Shown here: piece by piece, positions 3,641-15,003 of the stretch | How the letters are laid out: the number at the start of each line of letters is the position of its first letter | How positions within the stretch are numbered: position 1 is the stretch's first letter | Assembly (NCBI RefSeq): GCF_000765475.1 | Contig: NZ_JRHO01000014.1 | Location: 389,687 to 453,686, forward strand | Length of the DNA stretch: 64,000 nt | Reading direction: 5' to 3' | Origin: Methanococcoides methylutens | GTDB lineage: Archaea > Halobacteriota > Methanosarcinia > Methanosarcinales > Methanosarcinaceae | Made by a program: the position numbers and the translations under genes | The notes under the pieces: generated by a model | Told to the model about the DNA's origin: nothing | Database searches by the model: none | Seen by the model: only the letters and a program-made list of their open reading frames with translations

Positions 3641-3700
3641 TTGCTATAGGGGTGAGTAAATCGCGCTAAGTAAACAGTATATAATATATTGAGGATTTAT

Positions 3701-4027
3701 ATGGCCAAAGACAAAATATTATCCGAAATAAAAAAAGCAGAACAAAGTGCGGCCAAAATGGTGGAGGAAGGGCTCAAAAACAAGAGCGAGCATATAATGA
3801 ATGCTCGTGCTGAAGCCAGAGAGATCATCAAAGAGGCAGAAACTGATGCGACAAAGTCCGCACAGAGTGCACTAAGATCTGCTGAAGAAACAATCAAACA
3901 GGAAACTGAAGAGATTATCACTAACGGTAACGCTGCAGCTGGAGACATTAGTCAAAAGGCTGAAGCTAACGTTCAAAAAGCCGTTGAGAATTTAACAACA
4001 GAATTCGAGAGGGCAATTCATGCTTAA
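3701..4027 (+). CDS. ahaH: A-type ATP synthase subunit H
   Basis: This 108-residue protein is almost entirely charged coiled coil rich in Ala, Glu and Lys, as expected of subunit H. Subunit H pairs with subunit E to form the peripheral stalks that hold the catalytic head still against the rotor. The ATG at 3701 is taken because SD GAGG lies 6 bp upstream; an in-frame upstream start would occupy the ribosome site. It is the first gene of the ten-gene aha operon and its last codons overlap ahaI by 8 bp, suggesting translational coupling. Confidence 0.9.
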   Translation: MAKDKILSEIKKAEQSAAKMVEEGLKNKSEHIMNARAEAREIIKEAETDATKSAQSALRSAEETIKQETEEIITNGNAAAGDISQKAEANVQKAVENLTTEFERAIHA

Positions 4028-5960
4028 GCCAAAACAGATGAGTCGTGCCGTCATTGTAGGCCACAAGGACATCATGGAAGAAACCATTGAAGCTCTTCAT
4101 AGCAGCAATCTTTTCCACCTTGAGGATTACAATGAGGACGGTTCCGGACTCAAACTTGGCAGACCTTTCGAAAACGCAGGTGATGTTTCTAAGAAGCTTA
4201 TTCAGTTAAGATCGATCTCATCCTTCCTTGGTGTAAAAAAATCAGATGCACCTAAGCAGAAGGTTAACTCTGTTTTAAACGACCTTGAATCCAAACTTGA
4301 TAAACTGGATGAAGAGGTTAGTGAAAAAACAGAAAAACGGTCTGAACTGCAATCACGATTAAAGGAACTTGAAACACTGGCGAAAGACCTTGCGCCATTC
4401 TCAGCAATTCCAATAGAGATGGAATTGTACCGCAATTATGAGAGCATCGCAGTCTTTGCAGGTACTGTCAAGGAAAATGTCGGTCCTGCCATCTCAAAGG
4501 TTACATCGACCTACGAGATGGAATATGACCAGAATTCCGGAACTGTAGTATTGTTTGTCAAGAAAGAGGATGAAGCAACCGTTTCAGAAATACTTTCAAA
4601 CTTTGAGTTCAGAGAACTTAGGATCCCTGAATCAAATGGCACTCCACAAACATTACTTGCAGGCATTACAAAGGAAGAAGTAGACATCCAGAAACAGATC
4701 GAAGCACTGGAAACAGATGTATCATCGATCAAAGAGAAATATTCTGAGTTTATACTTGCCAGTGAAGAACTGCTTACTATCGAATCCGAAAAAGCAGAAG
4801 CTCCCGTCAAAGTTGCGACATCTGAGCACACATTCATGATAGATGGATGGGTACCGGAAGATGGCGTTGCAGGACTTGAGAACATCGTAAACACTGCAAC
4901 AAACGGACGAGCTTTTGTATCAGTACAAAAAATCACAACGGCAGATACGGACATCATACCAATCGAGTATGACAATCCAAAGGTCACAAGACCATTCCAG
5001 GAAATAATGGATCTTTATGCCCGTCCAAAGTACAAGGAGATCGACCCAACTGCACTGATATTCATATCATTCCCACTTTTCTATGGAATGATCCTTGGTG
5101 ATATCGGATACGCATTGATCCTTCTGACACTTGCTCTGGGAATAAAGAAGATGGTCAAGTCAGATGCTGTGAAGCCTTTGATGAACGTGCTTATCTACTG
5201 TCAGATATCAACATTTTTATTTGGTATTCTTTACGGTGAGTTCCTTGGATTCCCACTTGCAAGTCTTCACACCGATCACGGCACTATTCCCGGATTAATA
5301 GCAGGATTTGAAACAGTAACACTTTTCACATCCCCTATAGCTGGAGAATTGGTCACATATCCGATCCACAGAACACACATGATCATGACAATGATCGCTG
5401 CAACAGCACTTGTCGGTGTGCTCCACATCAACTTCGGATATTTGGTTGGATTCGTAAACGAAAACCGAAAACACGGTTTCGCTGCAGCAATGTTTGAAAA
5501 GGGTAGCTGGATCGTAGTAGAACTTGGAATAATCTTAGCAGTACTCGGTTACACTGGTACCGCACCCACACAAATAATAGGTATAATAGTGTTCCTTATA
5601 GGATTCGTCATGCTCGTTAAAGGAGAAGGTGTAAAAGGACCTATTGAATTACCCGCACTTTTAAGTAATGCACTTTCCTACACTCGTTTAATAGCAGTAG
5701 GATTGTCATCAATTTATATTGCATCTACTGTCAATCTCATAGCTTTTGATATGATCTTGCCACAAGGCGGCATCATAGCAGCAGTAGGTGCAATATTAGT
5801 ATTCATATTCGGACATGCGTTAAACACAGTCCTGAGTATAATAGCCCCTGGATTACATGCACTCAGGTTGCAGTATGTAGAGTTTTTCGGTAAATTCTAC
5901 GAAGGTGGCGGAAGAAAATACAACCCATTCGGTTATATAAGAAAATACACGGAGGAATGA
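4020..5960 (+). CDS. ahaI: A-type ATP synthase subunit I (a-subunit)
   Basis: At 646 residues it has the family layout: an N-terminal cytoplasmic half of about 340 residues with long coiled coils that contacts the E/H stalks, then a C-terminal membrane half with seven to eight helices. The membrane half forms the ion half-channels against the c-ring. Arginine-containing helix residues such as SYTRLIAVGLSS near the C-terminal third fit the essential Arg that faces the c-subunit carboxylate. The start overlaps the end of ahaH. Full length and undisturbed. Confidence 0.95.
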   Translation: MLKPKQMSRAVIVGHKDIMEETIEALHSSNLFHLEDYNEDGSGLKLGRPFENAGDVSKKLIQLRSISSFLGVKKSDAPKQKVNSVLNDLESKLDKLDEEVSEKTEKRSELQSRLKELETLAKDLAPFSAIPIEMELYRNYESIAVFAGTVKENVGPAISKVTSTYEMEYDQNSGTVVLFVKKEDEATVSEILSNFEFRELRIPESNGTPQTLLAGITKEEVDIQKQIEALETDVSSIKEKYSEFILASEELLTIESEKAEAPVKVATSEHTFMIDGWVPEDGVAGLENIVNTATNGRAFVSVQKITTADTDIIPIEYDNPKVTRPFQEIMDLYARPKYKEIDPTALIFISFPLFYGMILGDIGYALILLTLALGIKKMVKSDAVKPLMNVLIYCQISTFLFGILYGEFLGFPLASLHTDHGTIPGLIAGFETVTLFTSPIAGELVTYPIHRTHMIMTMIAATALVGVLHINFGYLVGFVNENRKHGFAAAMFEKGSWIVVELGIILAVLGYTGTAPTQIIGIIVFLIGFVMLVKGEGVKGPIELPALLSNALSYTRLIAVGLSSIYIASTVNLIAFDMILPQGGIIAAVGAILVFIFGHALNTVLSIIAPGLHALRLQYVEFFGKFYEGGGRKYNPFGYIRKYTEE

Positions 5961-5964
5961 ATAA

Positions 5965-6204
<240 letters not shown>

Positions 6205-6207
6205 GTT

Positions 6208-6238
6208 AATTTAAGAGCAAATTTATTGCTCTTAAATT
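6208..6238 (+). promoter_or_regulatory. Perfect 13-bp stem-loop between ahaK and ahaE
   Basis: AATTTAAGAGCAA (6208-6220) and TTGCTCTTAAATT (6226-6238) are exact complements around a five-base ATTTA loop. It starts four bases after the ahaK stop, in the longest gap of the operon body (52 bp). There is no T-run after it, so full termination is unlikely. A role in mRNA processing, 3' protection of an ahaHIK segment or partial read-through would raise c-subunit output over the single-copy subunits downstream. Confidence 0.7.
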
Positions 6239-6256
6239 CTTTGAAGGTGTCAGAGC

Positions 6257-6808
6257 ATGGGACTCGAAACAGTTATTAAAGATATCATGGATGCCGCACA
6301 GGCAGAAGTAACCATGATCAATGCAGGTGCTGATTCAGAAGTATCACAGATACTTGATGAAGCAAGGCAGACTGCAAAGAATATCATGGGCGACCGCTTG
6401 GCAAAAGCAGAAGATGATATCAAAAGATTACGTCAGCAAGAGACATCCAGTGCAAACCTTGAAGTCAAGCGTGCAATGCTTAATGCCCGCAAAGAAGTCC
6501 TTGATAAAGTATACAACAATGCAGTAGAGTCAATTGTATCTCTCCCTGCTGAAAAACAGGAAGAGTTGTTGAAAGCCATCATTGAAGAAAATGAAGGTAA
6601 CGGCAGCAAAATATATTCTAACAAAGACTCTGAGGAACTTGTCCGAAAACTCTCTTCATTGGAATATGCCGGCAATGTCGATTGTATTGGTGGCGTAGTC
6701 ATTGAGAACAATGATGGAACAGTTCGTCTGGATTATACATATGACATAATCTTGAAGAATGTTAATGAGCAATCATTGAAACAAACATCTGATATTTTGT
6801 TCGGGTGA
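6257..6808 (+). CDS. ahaE: A-type ATP synthase subunit E
   Basis: This 183-residue protein has an N-terminal coiled-coil half (about residues 1-100) and a globular C-terminal half, the standard subunit E plan. It pairs with subunit H in the peripheral stalks and caps the A/B head. SD GAAGGTGTCAGAGC lies before the ATG. It is the first gene after the intercistronic hairpin. Full length for the family. Confidence 0.92.
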   Translation: MGLETVIKDIMDAAQAEVTMINAGADSEVSQILDEARQTAKNIMGDRLAKAEDDIKRLRQQETSSANLEVKRAMLNARKEVLDKVYNNAVESIVSLPAEKQEELLKAIIEENEGNGSKIYSNKDSEELVRKLSSLEYAGNVDCIGGVVIENNDGTVRLDYTYDIILKNVNEQSLKQTSDILFG

Positions 6809-6815
6809 TATCCAA

Positions 6816-7889
6816 ATGCGGCTTTTGCAAAAATTTAAAAAGAAAAGTAGTCCGAATCATAGCGGAAGTGGCTCCAATTATGCTTATGTGACAGCACGTG
6901 TTCGGGCGATGAAGAGCAATCTTCTTCCAAAGGAGACATATCCACGACTTATGAACATGGGCATTGATGAGATCACACGTTTCATCGAAGAATCACAATA
7001 TAAGCAGGATGTCGACGAACTGGCAAGAGTATATGACGGCGTGGATCTGTTTGAGCATGCATTGAACAGAAACCTGGGCGTCACTTTTAGAAAGATTATC
7101 AACATTTCAGAAGGCGAGTTGAACTATCTTATCTCAGAATATTTAAGAAAATATGACATATGGAGCATCAAAACGATCCTACGTGGAAAGTATTGTAATG
7201 CATCATTAGAAGAGATAAATGATAGTCTCGTATCAGCCGGACAACTGTCTTATACATTTTTGTCAAGCCTTGCAGAAAAAGAATCCTATGAAAGTGTCAT
7301 TGATGCTCTCAGTGGAACCGATTATTACCCGATATTAAAAGGATATGATGGGACAAACCTCTCTGCTATTGAAAATCAGCTTGACAAGGAGTACTATAAC
7401 GGACTGTTCAATGCGATCGGCAATCCAGGTTCCAATGACCGTAAGCTGTTCTCAAAGTTCATCCGCACAGAGATCGACATAAAGAATCTCAGTACACTCT
7501 TTAGATTAAAGAAAGCAGATGTCAGCGAAGACGAAATTGCAGACCTCATTCTTGATGGTGGTCTTCATTTGAGTATGAGAGAGATCGAAAAGCTATTGCC
7601 TCTTCCTTTCAGTGAATTTATCAATTCACTTGAAAAATATCCATATTGGGAAGATATCTCTGGCATAGTGAGCCCGGAAATGGATTCACTGGTAGATCTG
7701 GAAACTCAACTTACAAGACACAGCATCAAATCCGCTGCAAGCTTTTCACATGTGTATCCACTATCCATTGTTCCGATCATGGACTATGTCCTGAACAAGA
7801 AGAATGAAGTGAACAACCTACGCATCATACTGCGTGGAAAAGCAGCGAATCTTGATGAGGAAATAATCAGGAACCAGTTGGTGATCTAA
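6816..7889 (+). CDS. ahaC: A-type ATP synthase subunit C
   Basis: The 357-residue, largely helical protein matches subunit C (the V-type d-subunit fold), the funnel that sits on the c-ring and couples it to the central stalk. Recognisable stretches are [17 protein letters not shown] near the N-terminus, [14 protein letters not shown] and the C-terminal [14 protein letters not shown]. Its stop overlaps the ahaF start as TAATG. Confidence 0.92.
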
Positions 7890-8188
7890 TGGAATTAGCA
7901 GTAGTAGGTAGCAGCGAGTTTGTTACAGGATTCAGGCTGGCTGGTGTCAAAAAAATATATGAAGCCAAAGATGATGAACTGGAATCCATGGTCAAAAAGG
8001 TCCTCGAAGATTCCGAGGTTGGAATTTTTGTCATGCATGGCGATGATGTTAATAAGCTACCGGAAATTTTGAGAGACACTCTAAGTGAGTCTGTTGAGCC
8101 AACAGTCGTTACTCTCGGAGGAACTGGTGAAAGCTCAAACTTAAGGGAAAAAATAAAACAATCGGTAGGTGTAGATCTGTGGAAGTAA
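7889..8188 (+). CDS. ahaF: A-type ATP synthase subunit F
   Basis: Subunit F, 99 residues, is a small Rossmann-like protein of the central rotor stalk together with subunit D. The opening [19 protein letters not shown] is characteristic. It overlaps ahaC by one base upstream and ahaA by ten bases downstream, so translation of C, F and A is probably coupled. Confidence 0.92.
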
Positions 8189-9915
8189 ATGGTGAAATTT
8201 ATCGTGTGGCAGGACCGGTCGTCACAGTTACAGGAATTAAACCGAGAATGTACGATGTGGTCAAGATAGGCCATGAAGGACTGATGGGTGAAGTTATCAG
8301 GATCCAAGGCGAAAAAGCTACTGTTCAGGTATATGAGGATACATCCGGTATCAAACCCGGAGAACCTGTAGTGAACACTGGTTTGCCTTTAGCCGTGGAA
8401 CTTGGACCCGGATTATTAGAAAGTATTTATGATGGTATTCAGAGACCTCTCCCTGTGCTACAGGAAAAGATGGGCAACTTCATTGAGAGAGGAGTAACTG
8501 CAAACGGACTTGACCGTGAAAGGACATGGGAGTTCAAGCCAACAGTAAGCAAAGGTGATGTTGTAGAGGGTGGAAGTGTTATTGGTGTTGTTCAGGAAAC
8601 TGAAAACATCGAGCACAAGATCATGCTCCCACCAACAGTATCCGGTACAGTAGAAGAGATCAAGAGCGGAAGCTTCAAGGTAGACGAAACTGTATGTGTA
8701 CTTGCTGATGGAACCGAGCTTCCAATGATGCAGAAGTGGCCTGTACGAGGTCCACGTCCTGTAGCTAAGAAACTCATGCCAAGCAAGCCTTTGATCACAG
8801 GTCAGAGGATCCTTGACGGAATGTTCCCTGTTGCAAAAGGCGGTACCGCTGCAATCCCAGGTCCATTCGGATCAGGAAAGACAGTTACACAGCAGCAGCT
8901 CGCAAAATGGAGTGACACAGATATTGTGGTTTACATTGGTTGCGGAGAGCGCGGCAACGAGATGGCTGATGTATTGAACGAGTTCCCTGAACTCGAAGAT
9001 CCAAAGACTGGCCGCCCACTTATGGAAAGGACAGTTCTTATCGCAAATACATCCAACATGCCAGTAGCTGCTCGTGAAGCATCTGTTTACACTGGAATCA
9101 CAATTGCAGAATATTACAGAGACATGGGATACGACGTATCACTCATGGCAGACTCAAGCTCAAGATGGGCAGAAGCAATGAGAGAGATCTCATCCAGACT
9201 TGAAGAGATGCCTGGTGAAGAAGGTTATCCAGCATATCTTTCAGCAAGGCTCTCAGAGTTCTATGAGCGTGCTGGTTCCGTGAACTCACTTGCAGGACTT
9301 GATGGTTCAATTACAGTTATTGGTGCAGTATCACCACCTGGTGGTGACTTCTCCGAGCCTGTCACACAGAACACACTTCGTATCGTTAAAGTGTTCTGGG
9401 CTCTTGACGCAAAGCTCTCACAGAAAAGACACTTCCCATCCATTAACTGGCTGACAAGTTACAGTCTGTACACCCAGGGTCTTGCAGACTGGTTCTCCGA
9501 GAACGTCGCACCTGACTGGACCGAACTCAGAGACAATGCAATGGATCTCTTACAGCAGGAATCCGAATTGCAGGAGATCGTACAGCTCGTCGGTTCAGAT
9601 GCACTTCCGGAAGACCAGCAGTTGACACTTGAGATCGCACGTATGGTAAGGGAATACTTCCTCCAGCAGAATGCGTTCCACCCTGTCGACACATACTGTC
9701 CATTTGACAAGCAGTACAAGCTTCTCAAATCCATCACAAAGTATGGAGAGATGGCAACCGCTGCGCTTGAAGCAGGAGTTCCAATGAACAAGATAATCAC
9801 TATCGAGTCCAAGGATGAACTGGCAAAAGTCAAGTTCGAAGAGGACTTTGAGGGTGCACTGGACACAGTCATGACAAAGATGGACAAAGAATTTGCTCAG
9901 CTCGGAGGCAACTGA
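8179..9915 (+). CDS. ahaA: A-type ATP synthase catalytic subunit A
   Basis: The 578-residue catalytic subunit has the P-loop GPFGSGKT at residues 228-235, the non-homologous insert domain typical of A/V-type A subunits at about residues 110-200, and the arginine-rich [13 protein letters not shown] stretch. It makes ATP from ADP and phosphate. Translation starts at GTG (8179), inside the end of ahaF. The reading frame is continuous, with no intein splice junctions in the P-loop region where archaeal inteins are often found. Confidence 0.96.
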
Positions 9916-9917
9916 AC

Positions 9918-11303
9918 ATGACCAAAGAATACAAAACGATCGTAGAGGTTTCCGGACCTCTGATTTTCCTTGAGAAGACAGAACCTGTAGGGTATGGTGA
10001 ACTTGTTCAGATCAACCTGCCGGATGGAACCACCAAGAGAGGGCAGGTTCTTGATACATCTGCAGATATGGTAGTCGTCCAGGTTTTCGAAGGTACAGGC
10101 GGACTCAACGAAGAATCCGGTGTAATCTTTAGTGGTGAGACCATAAAGCTGCCAGTATCAAAGGATATGCTCGGAAGGATTCTTTCCGGAGCAGGAGAAC
10201 CACTCGATGGTGGACCACGCATCGTTCCTGACGAGAAAGTGGACATCAACGGTGCATCAATGAACCCGTTTTCCAGGATGCCACCAGAGGACTTTATCCA
10301 GACAGGTATCTCCACAATCGATGGTACTAACACACTTGTGAGAGGACAGAAACTTCCTATCTTCTCCGGATCAGGTCTTCCACACAACGAGATCGCACTT
10401 CAGATCGCAAGGCAGGCAAAAGTTCCAGGAAGCGATGAAAGTTTCGCAGTAGTTTTCGGTGCAATGGGTATCACCAGTGAAGAAGCACAGTACTTCATGA
10501 AGGACTTCGAGAACACAGGTGCTCTTGAAAGAGCTGTTGTTTTCCTTAACCTTGCAGATGACCCTGCTGTCGAGCGTATCATCACTCCAAGGATGGCACT
10601 TACAGCTGCAGAATACCTTGCATACGAGCATGACATGCACGTACTCGTTATCCTGACAGATATCACAAACTATTGTGAAGCACTGCGTCAGATGGGTGCA
10701 GCAAGAGAAGAAGTTCCAGGAAGACGTGGTTACCCAGGTTACATGTACACTGATCTTGCATCACTGTATGAAAGAGCAGGTGTTATCAAGGGCTTAAAGG
10801 GATCTGTTACCCAGTTCTCCATCCTTACAATGCCTGGTGACGATATCACCCACCCGATCCCTGACCTTTCCGGTTACATTACCGAAGGACAGATCGTGGT
10901 TTCCCGTGAACTTCACATGAAGAACATCTACCCACCGATCAATGTATTGCCATCACTCTCTCGTCTTATGAACTCCGGTATCGGAGAGGGAAAGACAAGA
11001 GACGATCACAAGGCAGTATCTGACCAGATGTATGCAGCATACGCAGAAGGTCGTGACCTTCGTGGATTGGTTGCTATCGTCGGTAAAGAAGCATTGTCCG
11101 AAAGAGACAGGAAGATCCTTGAGTTCGCAGATCTGTTCGAAGACAGATTTGTTCGCCAGAGCAGGGATGAGGACCGTTCCATCGATGACACATTGAGAGT
11201 CGCATGGGAGATCCTTTCTGAGCTGCCTGAAGCACAACTCTCCAGGATCGATAACAAGTACATCGAAAAGTACCACCCTGCTCACCAGAAGACCAGCGAG
11301 TGA
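9918..11303 (+). CDS. ahaB: A-type ATP synthase regulatory subunit B
   Basis: The 461-residue non-catalytic partner of AhaA alternates with it in the head. The P-loop position reads [12 protein letters not shown] instead of GxxxxGKT, which is the family norm. Motifs [10 protein letters not shown] and [14 protein letters not shown] are conserved. It starts two bases after the ahaA stop. Confidence 0.96.
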
Positions 11304-11324
11304 TACTGTAGCGAGGGATCTATA

Positions 11325-11942
11325 ATGGGCGCAAAAGACGTTAAACCAACTCGATCAGAACTCATTGAGCTGAAGAAGAAGATCAAGCTCTCAGAAGGTG
11401 GCCACAAGCTGCTGAAAATGAAGAGAGATGGACTTATCCTTGAGTTCTTTGATATCTTAAGCAAGGCAAAGGATGTACGCTCAGAGTTGGATGCTGCCTA
11501 TGAAAAGGCCAATGAGAAGATCGGTATCGCAGAATCTGTGGAAGGCAGGATAACTGTCAAATCCACAGCATTTGCAATGAAAGATGCACCACAGATCGAG
11601 CTCGAAAGCCACAACATCATGGGCGTAGTAGTGCCAAAGATCGAATCCTCAAGTGTGCGTAAACCCATAAACAAGCGTGGATACGGAATTCTCGGAACAA
11701 GCTCTTACATTGATGAAGCCGTCGATTCATATGAAATCCTGGTTGAAAAGATTATTCTGGCAGCAGAGATCGAAACAACCATGAAAAAACTTCTTGATGA
11801 TATCGAAAAAACAAAGAGGCGTGTCAATGCACTTGAGTTCAAGGTCATACCTGACCTGCAGGAATCAATGAGTTTCATAAGACTCCGTCTTGAAGAGATG
11901 GAAAGAGAAAACACGTTCCGCTTGAAGAGGATCAAAGCATAA
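11325..11942 (+). CDS. ahaD: A-type ATP synthase subunit D
   Basis: Subunit D, 205 residues, is mostly two long antiparallel helices forming the rotor axle inside the A3B3 head. The DVKPTRSELIELKKKIKLS start and the C-terminal RRVNALEFKVIP stretch are standard. SD GAGGGATCTATA precedes the ATG. It lies 21 bp after ahaB. Confidence 0.94.
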   Translation: MGAKDVKPTRSELIELKKKIKLSEGGHKLLKMKRDGLILEFFDILSKAKDVRSELDAAYEKANEKIGIAESVEGRITVKSTAFAMKDAPQIELESHNIMGVVVPKIESSSVRKPINKRGYGILGTSSYIDEAVDSYEILVEKIILAAEIETTMKKLLDDIEKTKRRVNALEFKVIPDLQESMSFIRLRLEEMERENTFRLKRIKA

Positions 11943-11951
11943 GGCTTTCTC

Positions 11952-12125
11952 ATGCAGAACAAACCTTCTGATCGGCCAAACCTGGCCGACAGACTTTTTT
12001 TTATTTTAACACAGCCCGAAAATTTAGCTCGAATATTGAGATGGGCATGGATAGTTTCACTCGGGATGCTTGTTCTTGGATATATTTTGATTTATTTTAA
12101 CCTTAAGTCTTACATAAACCTGTGA
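11952..12125 (+). CDS. ahaG: A-type ATP synthase-associated small membrane protein G
   Basis: A 57-residue protein begins 9 bp after ahaD: a polar N-terminal 25 residues (MQNKPSDRPNLADRLF), then one hydrophobic helix of about 22 residues (AWIVSLGMLVLGYILIYF). In Methanosarcina mazei the tenth and last gene of the aha operon, ahaG, encodes a small membrane protein of this kind. Its role in the synthase is not established. Identification rests on position, size and topology. Confidence 0.75.
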   Translation: MQNKPSDRPNLADRLFFILTQPENLARILRWAWIVSLGMLVLGYILIYFNLKSYINL

Positions 12126-14472: not shown

Positions 14473-15003
14473 ATGAAGAATATGACAAGACCTAATTTGT
14501 TAAACAGAAAACTTCGAAGAAATGACGAAGGCCAGGTAACAATCGATTACCTTATGGGAATTACCATATTCATTGTTGCATTATTTTTCATATTCCAGTA
14601 TTCAGCAGGTTTATTTACACCATTCCAGTCCAATTCTGATGAAGTAACACTTGTTGCTGACCGTGTTGCTACATCCATCACTGAGAAGGAGATCAGTGCG
14701 GGAAACATCAATACACCAAATTTGATCGATGGAAACAAGACAAACGATTATTTTAAAAATCAACTTAACCTATTAACTAGCGGTTATGATACTGAGGTCA
14801 CAAATTTGGGATTGCAGGGACGGTATCACCAATATAATCTTAATGTGACGTTAGAGAACCTAGACAACAGTTCAGCAAACATAGCTGCTGGAAAACCACT
14901 TCCAACTTCAGGTAACATCGGTCAGACAAAGAGAATTGTCCTGATAGAAGATACAAAAACAGGAATTACTGAAAAGGGTATACTTTCAGTGAGGGTGTGG
15001 TAA
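14473..15003 (+). CDS. Pilin-like protein with class III signal peptide (DUF7287-like)
   Basis: The 176-residue protein has a basic N-terminus (RKLRRNDEG), the prepilin peptidase signature G|QVTIDYLMG and a 20-residue hydrophobic helix, then an extracellular domain. Cleavage after EG by a PibD/EppA-type peptidase is predicted. The signature and TPF-x-S segment after the helix resemble haloarchaeal DUF7287 proteins, from memory. SD AAAGGA lies close to the ATG. The next gene starts two bases after its stop. It is the only member of the cluster with a canonical class III cleavage site, so it may be the main pilin-like subunit. Confidence 0.68.
   Translation: MKNMTRPNLLNRKLRRNDEGQVTIDYLMGITIFIVALFFIFQYSAGLFTPFQSNSDEVTLVADRVATSITEKEISAGNINTPNLIDGNKTNDYFKNQLNLLTSGYDTEVTNLGLQGRYHQYNLNVTLENLDNSSANIAAGKPLPTSGNIGQTKRIVLIEDTKTGITEKGILSVRVW

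Follow-up and report, generated by a model that had tools for sequence, protein, structure and literature searches.

A hairpin between ahaK and ahaE in the ATP synthase operon of Methanosarcinaceae, a candidate intercistronic mRNA barrier

The archaeal ATP synthase contains about ten c subunits and one to three copies of most other subunits. How can one archaeal mRNA supply many c subunits but few of the others? This is the question addressed by a hairpin in the aha operon of Methanococcoides methylutens, which we analyzed in a DNA stretch of 64,000 nucleotides (the window). The genes of the operon lie on the forward strand in the order H-I-K-E-C-F-A-B-D, the names being taken from operon order (compare PMC2838876), and AhaE of the window is 84-92% identical to AhaE of M. 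vulcani, M. seepicolus and M. alaskense.

3701..4027, + strand: ahaH, start ATG within the listed open reading frame 3689-4027; named by operon order
4020..5960, + strand: ahaI; named by operon order
5965..6204, + strand: ahaK, c-ring proteolipid, 79 amino acids, stop codon TAA at 6202-6204; named by operon order (compare PMC2838876)
6208..6238, + strand: intercistronic hairpin, 13-bp stem, loop ATTTA; from sequence, fold and conservation in relatives
6239..6255, + strand: second small stem CUUUGA/UCAGAG; from fold, genus level only
6244..6249, + strand: Shine-Dalgarno sequence AAGGTG of ahaE; from sequence and comparison with relatives
6257..6808, + strand: ahaE, peripheral stalk subunit E, 183 amino acids; named by operon order
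6816..11942, + strand: ahaC, F, A, B and D, 3' of the hairpin; named by operon order

Behind these genes, 30 nt past ahaD, a GC-rich 7-bp stem (11972-11989) is followed by CAGACTTTTT and may mark the operon end. Positions 14473-15003 encode a protein with QVTIDYLMG near its N-terminal start, which we take to resemble archaeal class III signal peptides; with its neighbors it may form a pilus-type cluster behind the ATPase operon.

The hairpin begins with the fourth base past the ahaK stop codon (3 nt between) and consists of AATTTAAGAGCAA (6208-6220) paired with TTGCTCTTAAATT (6226-6238) in 13 Watson-Crick pairs. The perfect stem, the 5-nt loop and the starting point given in a preliminary description of this DNA are thus borne out by sequence and fold, as is its claim that the hairpin occupies the sole sizeable gap of the operon body: the ahaK-ahaE gap is 52 nt long, the remaining gaps from ahaH to ahaD being −10 to 21 nt. 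The RNA fold of 6195-6260 has an energy of −17.2 kcal/mol (z −2.84), which 2 of 200 shuffles equaled. Among the perfect stems of the window (loop 3-8) this is the longest, the runner-up having 10 bp, and when the window was dinucleotide-shuffled 20 times, no stem of 13 bp or more appeared. Two perfect stems reach 13 bp in 464 kb of the genome (the window plus 20 sampled stretches), the ahaK-ahaE hairpin and one other. The hairpin is real, and chance does not account for it.

Could it be a copy of something known? The pattern AGAGC-N3-12-GCTCT occurs twice in the 464 kb, and among 25 genomes searched seven, G000 and six others, have the exact core pattern, one copy each. TTAGAGC...GCTCTAA, searched in six genomes, turned up in six places, five of them shortly 5' of ahaE. 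A dispersed repeat was rejected on these counts. A search of six loci against Rfam 15 gave no family match at the gathering score; its single hit was below that score and outside the ahaK-ahaE gap. The bulge-helix-bulge substrate of the tRNA endonuclease has two 3-nt bulges about a 4-bp helix; it was rejected since the stem has 13 uninterrupted pairs and no bulges.

The family search covered 111 genomes of Methanosarcinaceae, of which 102 gave an AhaE match; the nine without a match, and G104, whose match had no ahaE start, are outside the 101 genomes examined. The stem is present in all 101. By script ahaK was located in 97 of them, and in 96 of the 97 the stem scores at least 7; the one scoring lower (G045) has an interrupted stem that folds with −20.0 kcal/mol. 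The Methanosalsum-type genomes G015, G089 and G090 together with G022, read and folded separately, all have the stem. The weakest in the family is that of G124, with two interruptions and a fold z of −0.8; G093 and G095 carry a single C-A mismatch within the stem core. The fold z is −2 or lower in 54 of 60 distinct single-hairpin gaps. The preliminary description had named lost pairing among close relatives as one observation that would tell against it; this was not seen, the stem being kept in 101/101 genomes, with changes on both sides. The hairpin is a family-wide RNA element.

Outside the family none of 38 loci, some of them possibly from the same species, scores 7 or more: in a first set of 20 loci the score is at most 4.5 or the gap too short for scoring, and in a second set 18 of 19 loci score at most 6, one having no ahaK by motif. 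In a tree of AhaE (87 rows) the hairpin-less rows form one side of a branch (support 95/93), and the genomes in which the hairpin is multiplied to an array form one clade (support 100/96), so that one hairpin gain and one expansion suffice. Judged from this tree, the distribution shows the hairpin to be of single origin and to have expanded once into an array in the Methanosarcina clade.

The gap of Methanosarcina and its near relatives is 175-267 nt long (33 survey genomes). The first element of the array is the same hairpin (in the MAG genomes G011 and G024 it is placed further in), and the array continues with extra stems on an AGAGC/GCUCU core, so that each of 21 arrays has 3-7 local hairpins that do not overlap. 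The fold z of the 33 arrays ranges from −4.4 to −18.2. Since L018:1253-1503, L067:2783-3003 and L068:2753-3003 contain tandem near-copies of a TTTCTTAGAGC...GCTCTAAG unit, the arrays seem to grow by tandem duplication. In Methanosarcina arrays such as L070:2940-3003, two partners could pair with the last GCTCTAAA arm, an upstream TTTAGAGC and TTTGGAG in the ribosome site of ahaE, which makes a possible switch.

Is the pairing itself maintained? Forty-eight distinct single-hairpin gaps of 40-70 nt, each represented once, were aligned from stop codon to start codon with the structure unused (alignment A3, which excludes the two Methanohalobium-type gaps of 105-106 nt and the gap of Methanosalsum type). 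In this alignment 90.4% of the cells pair, and 29 cells have both-side changes, compared with 9.7 after shuffling and 4-21 in slid controls; the pairs with a both-side change number seven, which a slide of −2 equals. Of the 21 arrays, 16 were aligned (A4; L020, L021, L069, L077 and L108 were too divergent). Here 96.2% of the cells pair and the both-side changes number 15 vs. 5.1 in shuffles, figures that are favored by a structure derived from the alignment on which it was tested. The proposed check on conservation with compensatory changes has thus been run, and pairing is kept with both-side changes in the 48 gaps and the 16 arrays. G-U outnumbers A-C by 50 to 8 in the family hairpins under a scoring that treats the two alike, by 36 to 6 in a set overlapping with these and by 33 to 8 in further array hairpins; because relatives are not independent, neither these nor the pairing figures are probabilities. 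With G-U ahead about six to one, the hairpin is read as sense-strand RNA, and in these alignments it shows selection as such.

A regulator-bound DNA palindrome, or an internal promoter of ahaE, would agree with an AT-rich inverted repeat whose letters are near-frozen, but a four- to six-fold excess of G-U over A-C is not favored by a DNA palindrome, and the loop ranges in length from 3 to 15. The G-U/A-C asymmetry disfavors a DNA operator, which we regard as very improbable.

The letters of the stem were compared in 23 chosen relatives by best match to the two 11-nt arms of the window. In 22 of the 23, 18-22 of the 22 arm letters are kept; the Methanohalobium-type L019 keeps 16, its 15-nt loop having perhaps misled the matcher. 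Four-fold sites of ahaE are down to 28-53% in the more distant of the 23, which indicates that the letters are kept as well as the pairing. Loops vary in length from 3 to 15 while the stem letters are near-invariant. This conservation is not absolute, as the redrawn stems in Methanosalsum-type, Methanimicrococcus-type and two g9 genomes indicate. The near-frozen letters hint that the sequence, too, is read by something, and a putative RNA-binding protein or nuclease specific for UUAAGAGC-loop-GCUCUUAA could adjust the operon, the array then being several sites. With this would agree the variable loops on near-invariant stems, the recurrence of the AGAGC/GCUCU core throughout the arrays and the mere two occurrences of AGAGC-N3-12-GCTCT in 464 kb. 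The redrawn stems do not, and we consider such a site unlikely.

The preliminary description had also emphasized a stem without T run. Indeed, the longest T run within the ahaK-ahaE gap of the window is 3, and a tract of U4 or longer is absent. This bears on a partial internal transcription terminator (ioTTS), at which a fraction of the polymerases would halt in the gap, yielding less ahaECFABD. Like the hairpin, ioTTS are intergenic elements that could lower the operon genes 3' of them; they are present in 38% of M. maripaludis operons (PMC10450193, accessible text), 15% of the transcription units of this organism end without U4 (PMC8716108, accessible text), and T runs of at least 6 are found in every one of 21 arrays. 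However, ioTTS are poly-U tracts, unlike the gap of the window with its strong hairpin, and among 62 single-hairpin genomes T runs of at least 5 follow the stem in 11 (of at least 4 in 38). The accessible text of PMC8716108 adds that efficient binding of aCPSF1 begins with two U4 tracts and that archaeal terminators are mostly hairpin-free. For the ATP synthase operon of M. maripaludis, which is outside the family, the accessible text of PMC10450193 reports no ioTTS, and terminators inserted there at atpK-atpE and at atpF-atpA lowered the growth rate from 0.15 to 0.07-0.08 per hour. Without a U4 tract the window copy is unlikely to act as an archaeal terminator, and this reading was rejected for it; the T6 runs leave termination a possibility in the Methanosarcina arrays. 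On the whole the terminator is an improbable explanation.

Somewhat more can be said for a translation insulator, a ribosome termination structure (RTS) past the stop codon that would prevent ribosomes finishing ahaK from re-initiating at ahaE, which would then rely on its own Shine-Dalgarno site. As in RTS, the stem follows directly on the stop codon of a gene inside the operon, here by 3 nt, and in many Methanolobus and Methanosarcina loci it includes bases of the stop codon. In E. coli such signals are centered about 5 nt past the stop, and in a synthetic operon they make the following gene less strongly expressed (PMC7518266, available part). In 64 single-hairpin genomes the ahaE site resembles AAGGTG (median −6.5 kcal/mol), in 33 array genomes it resembles GGAGGTG (−13.2 kcal/mol), and several hairpin-less outgroup loci with gaps of 2-13 nt have weak sites (−1.1 to −5.6), so that in Methanosarcinaceae ahaE looks set for independent initiation. 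Methanothrix-type loci, with gaps of 27-29 nt, have good ahaE sites. In the window AGGUG of the Shine-Dalgarno sequence is held in the loop of the second small stem, which is lost in some congeners that alter one side. But RTS have been described for bacteria, as a fold signal of their genomes that requires structure and neither a fixed sequence nor arrays (PMC7518266, available part), whereas the letters here are nearly frozen, and the array of 175-267 nt would be left unexplained. An RTS is conceivable, but we doubt it.

We favor, with a probability of roughly 0.45, a decay or processing barrier between cistrons of the kind known from Rhodobacter puf and E. coli malE-malF, which would uncouple the genes of membrane sector and c-ring, ahaHIK, from ahaECFABD. 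Of 34 E. coli gene pairs with a stabilized 5' gene, 26 have a 3' end just past such a hairpin without a U tract, and Rhodobacter puf is cited as the precedent of a decay barrier (PMC5927463, accessible part). With the puf and malEF barriers (PMC5927463) the aha hairpin shares a stable intercistronic stem, its conservation in relatives with compensatory change, the lack of a conserved U tract behind it and a preceding gene whose product is needed in excess, and by this analogy a 3' decay barrier as mapped in E. coli would be the best fit. The aha hairpin differs from both in being archaeal, in belonging to an ATP synthase operon, in its near-frozen stem and its array in one clade, and in being known here from sequence alone. 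In the E. coli atp operon, the boost of atpE comes from a translational enhancer before the gene rather than from a hairpin after it; the enhancer likewise serves extra synthesis of subunit c, but it is 5' of the c gene and acts on translation. The puf and malEF hairpins are nearer bacterial parallels than the atp operon.

How would the barrier work? After an endonucleolytic cut 3' of the stem, or when 3'-5' decay arrives from ahaECFABD, the stem next to the ahaK stop codon would block a 3'-5' exonuclease (the archaeal exosome), and a stable ahaHIK fragment would build up relative to ahaECFABD. Translation of ahaE would start from its own Shine-Dalgarno site, uncoupled from ahaK, and the multiplied hairpins of the Methanosarcina array would form a stronger barrier. 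Cut, block and dosage effect are what we infer; the hairpin probably lets the two operon halves be made in different amounts. Genes for the exosome subunit ECX1 and for aCPSF1 are present in the genome. Order-level relatives with hairpin-less gaps also carry exosome genes, so that the exosome alone fails to explain the distribution of the hairpin; as an explanation of it, exosome presence was rejected as non-discriminating.

Other points argue against a barrier: the stem letters appear more conserved than a pure structural block would require, and a stem so near the stop codon would fall within the footprint of the terminating ribosome. Moreover, since the stem separates ahaHIK from ahaECFABD, it would lift H and I besides K unless a second device divides them. 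The processing or 3'-end protection put forward in the preliminary description agrees with an RNA-level element lacking a conserved T run, and that description is supported in part; a dosage device acting on subunit c alone would need such a second device.

The published expression data on the aha genes of Methanosarcina are mixed, as far as the accessible text of PMC2838876 goes. On microarrays of M. acetivorans ahaECFABD, unlike the other aha genes, are two-fold up on acetate, and this break coincides exactly with the position of the array. By RT-PCR ahaI, ahaC and ahaB are together two-fold up on acetate, which leaves the break at K/E unconfirmed (PMC2838876). The main text of the M. acetivorans half-life paper (PMC5112694) does not mention aha or ATPase, the available parts of a start-site paper (PMC5378194) and a Ribo-seq paper (PMC11456600) hold under aha and ATP synthase terms nothing usable on the ahaK-ahaE gap, and ATP synthase terms are absent from an E. 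coli processing paper (PMC10667835). A literature search that had most subscription papers beyond its reach found no description of the ahaK-ahaE hairpin.

A bolder and more speculative proposal, which we hold to be doubtful, is that a sequence-read RNA element arose in Methanosarcinaceae where the membrane half of the operon meets the catalytic half. A predicted dedicated protein or nuclease would recognize UUAAGAGC-loop-GCUCUUAA and set the ratio of the mRNA halves, and in Methanosarcina the array would offer several such sites and, through alternative pairings, also gate the ribosome site of ahaE.

With a near-frozen non-coding hairpin in all examined genomes of a major methanogen family and an array in the genetically tractable Methanosarcina, the question of how one mRNA provides for the c-ring is directly testable by mutation of the stem. 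If the barrier reading is true, the hairpin would be an archaeal counterpart to the decay-barrier hairpins of bacteria.
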